From contig CABXYF010000007.1 in NCBI GenBank assembly GCA_902516435.1, forward strand, positions 1 to 40,104: DNA of 40,104 nucleotides, read 5' to 3'. Both the position numbers and the translations under genes were made by a program. Under the pieces are notes generated by a model. The model searched no databases and was not told the DNA's origin. It saw only the letters and a list, made by a program, of their open reading frames with translations. Below, in pieces: positions 20,977-25,466 of the stretch. Numbering within the stretch: the stretch's first letter is position 1; each line of letters begins with the position of its first letter. Source of the stretch: an uncultured Pelagibacteraceae bacterium. Its GTDB lineage: Bacteria > Pseudomonadota > Alphaproteobacteria > Pelagibacterales > Pelagibacteraceae.

Positions 20977-22638
20977 ATGAGAGTTCAATTAAGAGATCCT
21001 AACACCATAATGAAATTATCAAGATTAGGATCATTTCATCAGTCTAAATTATCTTTTCTAAGAAGCTTTCTTTATGAATTTAAAGACTGGAAATATAAAA
21101 GAGATTTATTCAATTTAAACAAATTTGGTTATGGAGAAGCAGTTTATTCTTTTACAAAAGATAAAAGAACTTATTCGTTAATTTGTTTTGCAAATGAGAT
21201 TAAAGACAATGAAAGATCAGATAGAGTAATTGCTACAAAGTGGGATGCGGCATTTACATTACATGATGGTGTTCCTTCTCAAAAAGATATTGATAGACTT
21301 AAAAATGAAGTACCAAAGCAGGAAGTTGGTAGACTTTCCTTTAAAGAATTAACGTTGTCTAGAGCAAATAAATCTATCCGAGTATTCAATCATGTCGTTG
21401 AAAAATTAAGTGAAGGTAAACAACCAGATTTAGAATTGTTATCAAAGGTTGGATATTTGTATAGAACAACTGCTGTATATGGATCTGGAAAATTTGGCTT
21501 AGCAGATCGTTTTAGGATTAAAAATAGAGAAGAAATTAACGGACCTTTTAGACTTGAAATGATGCTTGTTTATTTAGTCAGACAATTCACATTTGATCAA
21601 GTAAATCATGTTGCTCACAACAAAAACCCCAGTAAAGCTATTCTATTAGATAAAAAGATTTGTAAAAATTTAGGTATTGGTAATTCTACTGGATTAGGTA
21701 TGGCCCCATTTATTGTAAATCATCCAACTTTACTGAATAATTGGGTATTAAGCAGGGAGATAGCTTTAAAAAAAATTAGAGAAATAAAAAAAGTTAAGAA
21801 AAAAGAAAGTAATTTATTTATTGTTTGTATTAAAAAATCTCTAACAAATATTACCAGCTGGAATACTGATAGTGAGTATCAGCAAATTAAAATTAAAAAT
21901 CTATTAAGAGATATAAAAAAATTTATCGCTTTTATCGATAAATCTTTTGATTTTGAAGACGAATATCCTTTTAACAAAATATATCTTTGGCTAGAAAAAG
22001 AAGCTTGTGAGGAGTGTATTGAGTACGTAGTTTCTATAATGATGGAGCCTTATAATGAAATAACTAATTCGTTAGTAAGCCAGATGAGTTCAGAGGAGGA
22101 TAAATATTTCACCATTCCAAGCAATAGGACACTAAATGATTTACAAAATATTATTGAAAAAAAATATTCTAATATTTTGAAAATAAACTTTGAAAATAAA
22201 CAAAATACACAAAACTTTTGGTTTATTTCTAAAAATAAAGAAGAGCCTAGACTAGCTGATAGATTTGAAGAAAGTGGATCTGAATTAGAACAACCACTTG
22301 CAATAGCTAGAGATGTAAAAAAACTTTATGAAAAAATATTAGACACACAGCATAATTCTACTATTGCAGAATTTTTGTTTAAAAATTCTGAGCTTAGACA
22401 TATAGTTAGGAGAGTATTTATTGTTGAAAAATTTCCATACTCTGAGATACAGGATAATACTATAGGTAAAAATATAATGCCTATAGACATGCTAAGGTTA
22501 AAGTTATCATTTTTTGGAGCTTTAAAATTTGATCCACGATCGGATAAATGGTTAAGAATTTGTATGTTTCAAGGAGCGCCATTGCCTAATGAATTAAAAA
22601 ACTATGACGAACAGTGGGTCTATAAAACAAATATATAA
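20977..22638 (+). CDS. Uncharacterised 553-aa protein of the dipeptidase-like/DUF3726 cassette
   Basis: Family not recognised. It is a soluble protein without signal peptide or membrane span. The N-terminal third is mixed alpha/beta with many charged residues ('YGEAVYSFTKDKRTYSL'). The middle has 'YGSGKFGLADRFRIKNREEI' and 'NSTGLGMAPFIVNHP', which read like a conserved catalytic or binding core. A Lys-rich linker follows at about residues 265-285, and then a helical C-terminal half containing a paired cysteine 'EACEECIEYV' (near residue 349). It lies 2 bases after the M19-like gene and 3 bases before the DUF3726 gene, so it is part of one transcript. Its function is unknown. Confidence 0.85.
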   Translation: MRVQLRDPNTIMKLSRLGSFHQSKLSFLRSFLYEFKDWKYKRDLFNLNKFGYGEAVYSFTKDKRTYSLICFANEIKDNERSDRVIATKWDAAFTLHDGVPSQKDIDRLKNEVPKQEVGRLSFKELTLSRANKSIRVFNHVVEKLSEGKQPDLELLSKVGYLYRTTAVYGSGKFGLADRFRIKNREEINGPFRLEMMLVYLVRQFTFDQVNHVAHNKNPSKAILLDKKICKNLGIGNSTGLGMAPFIVNHPTLLNNWVLSREIALKKIREIKKVKKKESNLFIVCIKKSLTNITSWNTDSEYQQIKIKNLLRDIKKFIAFIDKSFDFEDEYPFNKIYLWLEKEACEECIEYVVSIMMEPYNEITNSLVSQMSSEEDKYFTIPSNRTLNDLQNIIEKKYSNILKINFENKQNTQNFWFISKNKEEPRLADRFEESGSELEQPLAIARDVKKLYEKILDTQHNSTIAEFLFKNSELRHIVRRVFIVEKFPYSEIQDNTIGKNIMPIDMLRLKLSFFGALKFDPRSDKWLRICMFQGAPLPNELKNYDEQWVYKTNI

Positions 22639-22641
22639 AAA

Positions 22642-23253
22642 ATGAAATCCTTAAGCGAAATCGAAACTATAGCTAAAAGAGCTTCAAAAGCTGCTGGTTT
22701 TTCCTGGGGAGAGTCTGAGGAAATTGGTAAATGTATAAGACAACTAGAGATGTTTGGTTTACCAGGAATTAAACATCTAAATTCTTATTTTCATGAAAGA
22801 CAAAAAAACATTTATGAGAATTTAGGTCTTATAAAGTTATCAAACTCCTCTTCTTCAAATCCGTATTGTCCAATTATTTTAGGAATTGGATTTTTAGATC
22901 AACTAAAAATAGTTGAAAATTATGAAAAAATTTACTTTTCTAGTATTGCCTACCCAATTATTTTTTTATCATTTTTGAGTAGATCTTCAGAAATTATTGG
23001 AAAAAAAATTAATGTTAAATTTGATCAGAAAGAAATCTTACTAAATTTAAATGTAAATATTTATTCTAATTTTTTAAATCTAGATTTTCCTAAAAGCTCT
23101 AAAAATTTAGAAATAAATATTATTGAAAATAAAGATAACTTTAGTGATGATGAATGGAAAAGTTTATATAAATTATCTGAAAATACTTTTGTAGAAGAGA
23201 CTGATAGTTTAAAAAAAGGTGCCGCGGGAGCAGGTTTAACAGATAATGACTAA
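22642..23253 (+). CDS. DUF3726 family protein
   Basis: 203 aa. The opening 'LSEIETIAKRASKAAGFSWG' followed by 'GESEEIGKCIRQLEMFGLPG' matches what I recall of DUF3726, a family of unknown function found in Rhodobacteraceae and other alphaproteobacteria. The C-terminus ends in 'EETDSLKKGAAGAGLTDND', a small-residue loop near the end that looks conserved. There are no membrane segments. It is embedded in the cassette: 3 bases after the 553-aa gene, and its last 8 bases overlap the start of the zinc-ribbon microprotein. Confidence 0.8.
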   Translation: MKSLSEIETIAKRASKAAGFSWGESEEIGKCIRQLEMFGLPGIKHLNSYFHERQKNIYENLGLIKLSNSSSSNPYCPIILGIGFLDQLKIVENYEKIYFSSIAYPIIFLSFLSRSSEIIGKKINVKFDQKEILLNLNVNIYSNFLNLDFPKSSKNLEINIIENKDNFSDDEWKSLYKLSENTFVEETDSLKKGAAGAGLTDND

Positions 23254-23413
23254 AGATTTAGAAAAAAAAGCTATAGATAGGAAAGACAACGATTTAAATA
23301 ATATCTGTGAAGAGTGTAGAAAAGAGGATGAAACTGTATTTCAAAATCTAATAATGACTGGGTTTAAACTTTGTAAATCTTGCAGGGTCTCTAAAACTAT
23401 TTTCCCAATTTAA
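23246..23413 (+). CDS. 55-aa zinc-ribbon microprotein
   Basis: A short gene easy to miss: ATG at 23246, TAA at 23411-23413, 55 residues. It carries two C-x2-C knuckles, C21-x2-C24 ('NICEECRK') and C43-x2-C46 ('KLCKSCRV'), separated by 18 residues, the layout of a single zinc ribbon. The start overlaps the DUF3726 stop by 8 bases, a typical coupled junction, and the frame uses the same AT-rich codons as its neighbours. It ends with a 4-base overlap of the convergent Yip1 gene. Function unknown; it could be a metal-binding accessory of the cassette proteins, or a nucleic-acid binder. Confidence 0.65.
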   Translation: MTKDLEKKAIDRKDNDLNNICEECRKEDETVFQNLIMTGFKLCKSCRVSKTIFPI

Positions 23414-23955
23414 CTTATTTGATTCATTGGTAGCATATTCATTCTACTCATCACAAAAGAAATAGATAAAAAAGCTATTATAAGAAATGATAAGAGAATA
23501 ATACCGAAAGATTTGAAATTAGATTTAAGGTTTAAAATTTGCTTTGTTGAAATTATTAAACCAGCAAATATCCAAAACTGTGTAAGAAATATTATTGGTA
23601 TCATTAAATCTGGTGTCACTGCAAAAAATCTAAGTAATCCAGGAGCATGAGCATAACCAACTGCTGTTAAAACTTTTTTAAAAGAAACTTTTGTTTGTTT
23701 ATCTGGAAAAAGTTTTACACCAATTACATAAATAAAGATTGCCCACACCAACCAAGTAATAATCGCTGTAAGCCCTGACATAGCAATTGCAGTTTTAATT
23801 ATGGTATTCGCTGCAACTGCACCAGCTATTCCATCCAAAATCATTATTATACCAGCAAAATAAATTGAGGGTTCACCAAAATTTTTATTATCTGAATAAA
23901 GTGTCTTATCTAATTTTATTGATTTAAAAATTATATTTAAAAATTCACCAAACAT
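23410..23955 (-). CDS. Yip1-domain membrane protein
   Basis: 181 aa, about five transmembrane segments, resembling the YIP1 family: a hydrophilic N-terminus of about 30 residues, then a pattern with 'GLTAIITWLVWAIFIYVIG' and a loop holding 'VLTAVGYAHAPGLLRFFAV', where the 'GYA.AP' turn is the usual Yip1 feature. The role in bacteria is unknown. Its start codon shares one base with the stop of the 36-aa membrane peptide gene (TAATG), so the two are translationally coupled. Confidence 0.75.
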   Translation of the reverse strand: MFGEFLNIIFKSIKLDKTLYSDNKNFGEPSIYFAGIIMILDGIAGAVAANTIIKTAIAMSGLTAIITWLVWAIFIYVIGVKLFPDKQTKVSFKKVLTAVGYAHAPGLLRFFAVTPDLMIPIIFLTQFWIFAGLIISTKQILNLKSNFKSFGIILLSFLIIAFLSISFVMSRMNMLPMNQIS

Positions 23956-24107: not shown

Positions 24108-25466
24108 TTAGCCTTTTACAACTTCTCTTGTGTTAGCGTTAAAAGACTCTTTAAATGGAATATCAACTACAACAGCATCCACAGGGGCACCTGGAGTACT
24201 AGAGTATTTCTCTGGTAAATGAACTTTAAATTTAGTTCCAATCTTACCTTTTGGAAATCCATTTGAGTTTAAAGTTCCGTCATATGGCACATATCCCATA
24301 GCAATGTTTTGTTTTTTCTCAGGATGATACCAAGGAGATGTAATAAATCCAACTGGATCACCTCCACCTTCTGGTGAAATTAACCAAAAGTCAGGAGCAT
24401 AATCATCTACTGGCTTTCCTCCAAACTCAAGTCCAACCAATTGAAGTTTATATGGCTTGTTTCCTGCTTGCAGTTCAGCTTTCATTTTCTCTAAAGCTGG
24501 TTTACCAACATAATCTGCTTTTTTATTCCATTCACCTTTACCAGATAATGAAACTTGATAGCCAAGATTGCATTGAAATGGATTATGTTGAGCATCCATG
24601 TCTTGACCCCAGGAAAGTATACCTGCTTGAATTCTTCTATGATGAGCTGGAGCAATAACCATTAAGTTATGAGCTTTTCCTTTTTCAAGAACAGCATTCC
24701 ACATATCATCAGCATATAAAGTAGAATTTCTAAGATATATTTCATAACCAGCTTCTCCTGAGAAACCAGATTGAGAAATAACAACATCTCTTCCACCAAC
24801 TTTCGCTTCAGCTAAACCATAAAAAGGCATATTATCAAAGTCAACATGATCTCCACATAGATCTTTCATCAATGCTTTTGCTTTAGGTCCTTGTATTTGA
24901 ACTGGACTGACATCAATTTCTTCGATAGTACAATTATATCTTCCATCAGCATTGACGCCTTGAAGATACATTCCAATATCAGAATCTGATAAAGAAAACC
25001 AAAATTCATCCTCTGAAATTCTCAAAAGAATTGGATCATTTAATACTCCACCATAAGCATTACATAAAATTACATACCTTGCTCTCATTGGAGAAATTTT
25101 AGTTGCATCTCTTGTAATTACATAATCTGTAAATTTTTCTGCATCAGGACCTTTAACTCTTATTTGTCTTTCAACAGCAACGTTCCACATTGTTACATGA
25201 TTTACAATAGCGTCGTACTCTACCATTGCACCACCATCTTCAGGTTTTACATAACCTCTTGGATGATAAATTCTATTATATACAGTTGCTCTCCAACAAC
25301 CTTCTTTCATTGATAAATGCCAATAAGGGGACTTTCTTACCCTCGTTGAAATTAACATTTCAACTTTAGTTGGCCCACTTTGTCTTAAATTATATGGTAC
25401 TTCTCGATCAGATTGATCAACAGAAGTAAAATGTTTTAATTTAGTATAGTCAAATTCATTAGACAT
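24108..25466 (-). CDS. DmdA-related GcvT-family methyl/aminomethyl transferase
   Basis: 452 aa, folate-binding GcvT fold. Several stretches track the DMSP demethylase DmdA more closely than glycine-cleavage GcvT: 'WNVAVERQIRVKGPDAEKF', 'GGVLNDPILLRISEDEFWFS', 'DSDIGMYLQG', 'VSPVQIQGPKAKAL'. It is longer than DmdA (about 370 aa) because of an N-terminal extension of around 50 residues and extra loops, so it is probably a sister family, not DmdA itself. Expected reaction: moving a methyl group from a methylated substrate to THF. Its ATG overlaps the end of the MetF-like gene by 8 bases, so the two work as a pair. The substrate may be the compound brought in by the upstream binding protein: TMAO, betaine or DMSP-like. 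Confidence 0.8.
   Translation of the reverse strand: MSNEFDYTKLKHFTSVDQSDREVPYNLRQSGPTKVEMLISTRVRKSPYWHLSMKEGCWRATVYNRIYHPRGYVKPEDGGAMVEYDAIVNHVTMWNVAVERQIRVKGPDAEKFTDYVITRDATKISPMRARYVILCNAYGGVLNDPILLRISEDEFWFSLSDSDIGMYLQGVNADGRYNCTIEEIDVSPVQIQGPKAKALMKDLCGDHVDFDNMPFYGLAEAKVGGRDVVISQSGFSGEAGYEIYLRNSTLYADDMWNAVLEKGKAHNLMVIAPAHHRRIQAGILSWGQDMDAQHNPFQCNLGYQVSLSGKGEWNKKADYVGKPALEKMKAELQAGNKPYKLQLVGLEFGGKPVDDYAPDFWLISPEGGGDPVGFITSPWYHPEKKQNIAMGYVPYDGTLNSNGFPKGKIGTKFKVHLPEKYSSTPGAPVDAVVVDIPFKESFNANTREVVKG

Follow-up and report, generated by a model that had tools for sequence, protein, structure and literature searches.

The locus examined here raises the question of whether a very short open reading frame, lying between a DUF3726 gene and a convergent membrane protein gene, is a genuine gene and, if so, with which of its neighbours its product belongs. 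The frame occupies positions 23246-23413 of the forward strand in a 40,104 nt stretch of a Pelagibacteraceae genome, hereafter the window. A preliminary description had presented it as a zinc-ribbon gene with a start coupled to DUF3726, whose product might act as an assembly or electron-transfer helper.

A short gene with four invariant cysteines

The frame itself was found just as it had been described: positions 23246-23413 (+) open with an ATG and encode a 55-aa product, MTKDLEKKAIDRKDNDLNNICEECRKEDETVFQNLIMTGFKLCKSCRVSKTIFPI, which overlaps the DUF3726 gene by 8 nt and carries the motif C-x2-C-x18-C-x2-C, followed by the tail SKTIFP(I/L). The first knuckle comprises the codons for C21-E-E-C24 (23306-23317, +) and the second those for C43-K-S-C46 (23372-23383, +), with 18 residues between the two pairs. 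The earlier view that such a pair of knuckles is unlikely to arise by chance was sustained by simulation as well as by the homologues and the selection described below. An ORF bearing the motif (ATG start, 40-80 aa, C-x2-C-x15-20-C-x2-C) appeared in one of 200 first-order Markov simulations of the window, which keep its dinucleotide make-up and for which the spacing range of x15-20 was picked after the motif had been seen. The real window holds one motif-bearing ORF among its 41 ORFs of 40-80 aa.

When 101 whole genomes were searched with the small protein, strong homologues, at E 1.3e-14 or better, came from 43 of the 61 genomes of the same genus, including the window's own, and from none of the 40 genomes of the neighbouring family in the order. 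With a 24-row profile, the gene was detected in 122 of 197 order-level genomes, all of them members of family f1 (Pelagibacteraceae). Across 289 genomes of the class, the A1 profile gave good matches only in two same-genus genomes, one of them the window's own, and a second profile, A3, matched 43 genomes at a limit of E 1, strongly only in the same two. The best weak match outside these, in genome G252 (E 0.0018 over 17 residues with A1; E 0.0035 with A3, the best of 41), looks like a chance match given the number of genomes searched, its DNA having been inspected. In a phylum sample of 110 genomes the protein was present only in the window's own genome. The family was therefore found here only in f1, with its absence elsewhere resting on samples.

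The two alignments behind these profiles differ in composition. A1 consists of 24 picked sequences, namely 23 of the 46 distinct proteins and that of locus L027; the protein list behind it omitted L003, which lies at a contig edge, and L027, which has a GTG start. A3 holds 20 rows selected for diversity. The preliminary description had made its case depend on conservation of the cysteines and of the frame in close relatives, and all four cysteines proved invariant in A1 (24 rows) and in A3 (20 rows). V31, N34, T51, F53 and P54 are also invariant across the 20 diverse rows of A3, the C-terminal tail S-K-T-I-F-P-(I/L) is nearly constant, and the N-terminus is variable. The comparison of synonymous and nonsynonymous change that had been proposed as a check indicates purifying selection, with a pooled pN/pS of 0.161 in the sense frame (47 distinct DNA cores, 38 codons) and a median dN/dS of 0.116, the highest being 0.351, over 408 usable pairs of moderate pS. 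The remaining five frames gave pN/pS values of 1.47, 1.90, 1.35, 0.30 and 2.36, the 0.30 belonging to one antisense frame, and thus the sense frame is the most constrained.

We regard 23246-23413 as a real gene with near certainty, and consider it probable that the protein binds a metal. The idea of a chance open frame without a product, which could appeal to the shortness of the ORF and to the lack of any Pfam or NCBIfam family above cut-off, is already refuted by the strong conservation and the low pN/pS and has a negligible probability. Few free-living cells have genomes as small as those of SAR11, and a lineage-specific gene that is retained in this many genomes of the genus and strongly constrained by purifying selection probably benefits these very abundant ocean cells.

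Some homologues depart from the usual form. Genera g228 and g5 have shorter ones (43-51 aa; L176, L177 and L178) in the vicinity of enolase-like and pdxA-like genes, and some of the small proteins in genus g229 have an N-terminal extension (L180:3580-3900, L181:5021-5341). The extension of L180, which alone was scanned, is weakly DUF4170-like (E 0.00033, 21 bits, cut-off 25), and the one paper found to name DUF4170 appears unrelated.

The convergent Yip1-type gene

The steadier partner of the small gene is not DUF3726 but the convergent gene on its other side, which encodes a 181-aa multi-span membrane protein of Yip1 type (23410-23955, -). The stop codons of the two genes overlap in the letters TTAA (23410-23413), and the same 4-nt overlap was seen at 90 of 94 distinct junctions examined, after 60 duplicate junctions had been set aside. 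The window's convergent protein has several hydrophobic stretches, visible as hydropathy peaks. It is placed in the Yip1 type by homology to its relatives, as PF04893 (Yip1) scored above cut-off in four of the five family members scanned and the window's own protein gave no PF04893 match.

Among the 197 order-level genomes, 119 of the 122 with the small gene also hold a Yip1-type gene, three hold the small gene without it, four hold the Yip1-type gene alone and 71 hold neither, these being raw counts that ignore shared descent. The two genes are convergent and within 60 nt of each other in 117 of the 119. Where the Yip1-type gene occurs alone, two of the four genomes (G516 and G037) run out of contig at that very place, and the other two (G468 and G434) have kept it with no small gene at the expected place. 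The three genomes in which the small gene lacks a Yip1-type match (G390, G401 and G499) carry distant homologues that sit beside enolase-like and pdxA-like genes and have cysteines and FP tail preserved. The small gene and the Yip1-type gene are separated by others in G483 and G486, where neither has been lost.

The surroundings of the pair are less steady. One flank may be purE, the M19-p553-DUF3726 block, or a VTT, EamA-like or msrA-like gene, and the other a GcvT-like, glutamine-synthetase-like, hydrolase-like, IMPase-like or FAD-oxidase-like gene (mostly by eye). The neighbours of the pair are altogether different in genus g229, where the Yip1-type protein is only 31-34% identical. As a separate observation, a diverged Yip1-type version occupies the locus in L196, L197, L142 and L047 (34-42% identity to the window's); the GcvT-like neighbour of L196 and L197 is ~90% identical despite the diverged gene beside it, which points to a possible allele-exchange hot spot.

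Our reading of the whole, offered tentatively, is that the gene encodes a soluble ~6.5-kDa C4 zinc protein that acts as a partner of the Yip1-type protein. The four cysteines would hold one structural zinc ion and so fold the ~35-residue C-terminal half, and the charged N-terminal ~15 residues would form a variable linker. The tail S-K-T-I-F-P-(I/L) could be a docking motif through which the protein, at the cytosolic side of the membrane, binds and regulates a partner, the Yip1-type protein being the likeliest. Upstream, the DUF3726 block would be a separable, probably catabolic unit which gives the small gene a ready-made start codon and presumably also a shared transcript. The choice of the Yip1-type protein as possibly the likeliest partner is drawn from co-occurrence, and the two genes having unrelated functions is about as likely.

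On that alternative, which we consider an even contender, the product is a free-standing small zinc protein with a housekeeping or regulatory task, binding RNA, DNA or protein, and its adjacency to the Yip1-type gene reflects shared stops and synteny. Given the stop overlap at 90 of 94 junctions, a break at the junction would be apt to harm one gene or the other, and the overlap could keep the two side by side for mechanical reasons, even if they had no function in common; moreover, convergent genes are not co-transcribed. Since ten same-genus genomes lack the small, Yip1-type, GcvT-like and DUF3726 genes together (compared by hand), part of the co-occurrence reflects loss of the whole locus, and shared stops together with such loss may explain part of the association. 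The three distant homologues without a Yip1-type match, which keep cysteines and FP tail all the same, also favour a free-standing protein, as do the two genomes in which inserted genes separate the pair and both survive; the Yip1-type gene standing alone in G468 and G434 likewise speaks against a partnership. However, the pairing outlasts the exchange of both flanks and the divergence of the partner itself, and the Yip1-type gene tracks the presence of the small gene far better than DUF3726 does.

A stronger form of the partnership reading, which we think unlikely, would make the C4 zinc mini-protein and the Yip1-type protein a two-gene module specific to Pelagibacteraceae, arranged tail to tail with interlocked stops, cross-regulated and serving as a joint membrane switch. 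If this were true, read-through transcripts would be mutually antisense, so that the levels of the two could be cross-regulated, and at the membrane the two proteins would act jointly as a switch that responds to zinc or stress.

DUF3726 and its separable block

The upstream neighbour, a DUF3726 gene (22642-23253, +; PF12525, 75.3 bits against a cut-off of 22.1), is frequent but separable. The small gene starts inside its Asn-Asp-stop, the two sharing the 8 nt ATGACTAA (23246-23253, +). The DUF3726 stop could be placed in 49 of the 52 loci examined, and every one of these 49 has an ATG that makes the 8-nt overlap (the second ATG in L026). The coupled start of the preliminary description is thus a regular feature of these loci; as evidence of coupling it is weak, because the overlap largely follows from the conserved C-terminus of DUF3726 and because other genes share the same start or overlap. 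In most loci that C-terminus reads G-A-G-A-G-L-x-D-N-D, with DND in 35 and D in all of the 40 loci read (40 of 59 were readable, 19 were unrecognised by the pattern, and 28 of the 40 belong to the window's genus). Any Asn-Asp-stop written AAT-GAY-TRA automatically includes ATGAYTRA.

Elsewhere in the class, outside the window's genus, DND ends 7 of 12 DUF3726 tails and D ends all 12, and five of those seven DND tails use AAC rather than AAT and have no ATG as a result. AAC is used in L084 and L095, where no small gene follows; L085, which likewise lacks the small gene, keeps AAT, and the tracking of codon choice with the absence of the small gene is suggestive only. A 733-aa ORF begins at the ATG of the DUF3726 tail in L118, and in L186 the small gene begins inside an unrelated VTT-domain gene, which it overlaps by the same 8 nt. 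An overlapping start is often taken as proof of coupling, and these loci indicate that it can be a by-product of an upstream C-terminus in an AT-rich genome. The conservation of the GAGAGLxDND-like tail in its own right (22642-23253 in the window, and L054-L112) suggests a functional C-terminus. No paper naming DUF3726 was found in a full-text literature search, and the AlphaFold2 model of the protein (pLDDT 55.8) was too poor for a fold search.

On the helper reading, the small protein would assist DUF3726 in assembly or electron transfer, co-translated with it and acting on the same enzyme. In favour of this, DUF3726 lies on the same strand within 700 nt of the small gene in 93 of the 122 genomes, in addition to the overlap at all 49 measurable loci. 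However, over the 197 genomes the two genes occur together in 95, the small gene without DUF3726 in 27, DUF3726 without the small gene in 39 and neither in 36, so that neither gene is obligately accompanied by the other. For 27 of the 122 order-level genomes that hold the small gene no DUF3726 match was obtained, and two more have DUF3726 elsewhere in the genome. Of the 134 order-level genomes with DUF3726, the 39 that lack the small gene comprise 38 of family f2 and G516, whose contig ends where the small gene would be expected. In G389 the M19-p553-DUF3726 block is 510 kb from the small gene and its Yip1-type neighbour, and in G030 and G450 DUF3726 and the small gene are on separate contigs, the small gene not following DUF3726. 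DUF3726 also stands without the small gene on a Phaeobacter plasmid. With the overlap itself derived from the DUF3726 C-terminus, the proposal of a DUF3726 helper is left unsupported and is largely refuted already by the gene distribution; we consider it highly improbable.

DUF3726 travels instead with two other genes, a membrane-dipeptidase-like gene (M19, PF01244; 19988-20974, +), which is the first of the block, and the gene for a 553-aa protein, p553 (20977-22638, +). The latter matched nothing in Pfam or NCBIfam and is 43% identical to its Phaeobacter counterpart, making it a well-conserved family that is nameless in both libraries. The usual order of the locus is purE (-), then M19, p553, DUF3726 and the small gene (+), then the Yip1-type, GcvT-like and MTHFR-like genes (-). 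In five loci (L113-L117) the M19-p553-DUF3726 block is absent and the small gene lies directly between purE and the Yip1-type gene, and in two genomes (L118 and L119) the block follows purE and the stretch read contains neither the small gene nor the Yip1-type gene. The labels purE, purK, Rieske, EamA (the window's gene), msrA, glutamine synthetase, hydrolase, IMPase, enolase and pdxA were assigned by eye.

The block is also present on a plasmid of Phaeobacter inhibens (L231), in a cluster that includes a BCCT transporter, aldehyde dehydrogenases, a ring-hydroxylating dioxygenase and an FAD oxidoreductase, and no small C4 frame was listed in that cluster. Its contents suggest that the block may serve the catabolism of a betaine-like compound. 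A link to homarine catabolism was considered as well, and no support for it was found in the literature.

Beyond the Yip1-type gene, the GcvT-like aminomethyltransferase gene (24108-25466, -) is a usual but inconstant neighbour, 13 of the 122 small-gene genomes giving no match to it at E 1e-80 (compared by hand). Judging by gene order, the GcvT-like and MTHFR-like genes would correspond to SAR11_1265 and SAR11_1264 of HTCC1062, which are described respectively as an aminomethyltransferase of unknown substrate and as metF (PMC3160333).

Relation to known zinc-binding families

Both alignments (24 and 20 rows) show two conserved CxxC motifs within a single short domain, and in this the small protein fits the general description of a small C4 zinc knuckle. 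The narrower label of zinc ribbon, which the preliminary description had used, names a fold that is putative here (ribbon or treble clef), the AlphaFold2 model (mean pLDDT 51.3, pTM 0.19) being too poor for a fold search. Among PDB sequences there was no relative of the small protein (best E 0.41), and NCBIfam, scanned with the window's small protein alone, gave no match above cut-off. The commonest sub-threshold Pfam matches were the ZZ-type zinc finger PF00569 and zf-C4pol PF14260, in 10 and 9 of 24 members respectively. Membership of either was rejected, the best E-values being 0.0024 and 0.028 and the window's protein scoring 14.5 bits against a ZZ cut-off of 21.4. The family is thus lineage-specific and unclassified in the libraries searched, and of a known general kind, the small C4 zinc proteins.

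Searches of viral sequences gave no relatives. The best PHROGs match was phrog_5602 (E 0.0031), to one distant homologue (the 43-aa protein of L176), and when 50,697 phage records were searched by tblastn with this protein no match came up, nor did one in a search of phage records with the window's protein. In viral contigs, 270 stretches fit a pattern and none was confirmed.

More specifically, the protein could be related to the N-terminal zinc-binding domain of ClpX and, standing alone, act as a protease adaptor or decoy. The C-x2-C-x18-C-x2-C spacing is identical to that in the ClpX-type domains of 15 loci, and in profile comparison (10 of the 15 ClpX-type rows used) hhalign gave a probability of 43.6 with A3, exceeding all 30 decoys that retain only the cysteine columns, against 2.2 for a DksA/TraR control. 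However, two of those decoys reach 31.1 and 39.5, ClpX against DksA itself scores 32.9, and the value falls to 6.0 with A1, the narrower alignment. The template consisted of 10 very similar rows and the DksA control of five, only 5 of 20 DksA-type loci having given a usable row. The zf-C4_ClpX family was hit once, by the copy in L179, at 12.2 bits against a cut-off of 27, and PF06689 is missing from the 17 Pfam families that the 24 A1 members matched at E up to 1. The resemblance stays a lead, and we judge it highly improbable that it accounts for the protein.

Compared with the ClpX N-terminal C4 domain (PF06689), then, the small protein shares the cysteine spacing and a weak profile likeness in one of two alignments, and differs in being free-standing, in its conserved SKTIFP tail and in lying far below the Pfam cut-off. 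Its convergent neighbour belongs, by the homology of its relatives, with the bacterial Yip1-domain proteins (PF04893); a search of the literature turned up no Yip1 protein reported to have so small a partner, and the one paper found to name Yip1 and zinc ribbon in bacteria (PMC11237479) brings them up in separate contexts. A likeness by description only can be drawn to haloarchaeal proteins, which belong to another domain of life and have C(P)XCG motifs in place of the plain CxxC seen here: the one-domain C(P)XCG zinc-finger micro-proteins of haloarchaea have been studied experimentally (PMC11241148, PMC6562870) and, like the protein described here, are small with cysteine zinc-finger motifs. 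The same holds for Brz of Halobacterium, described as a small zinc-finger protein encoded beside the gene that it regulates (PMC2253796).
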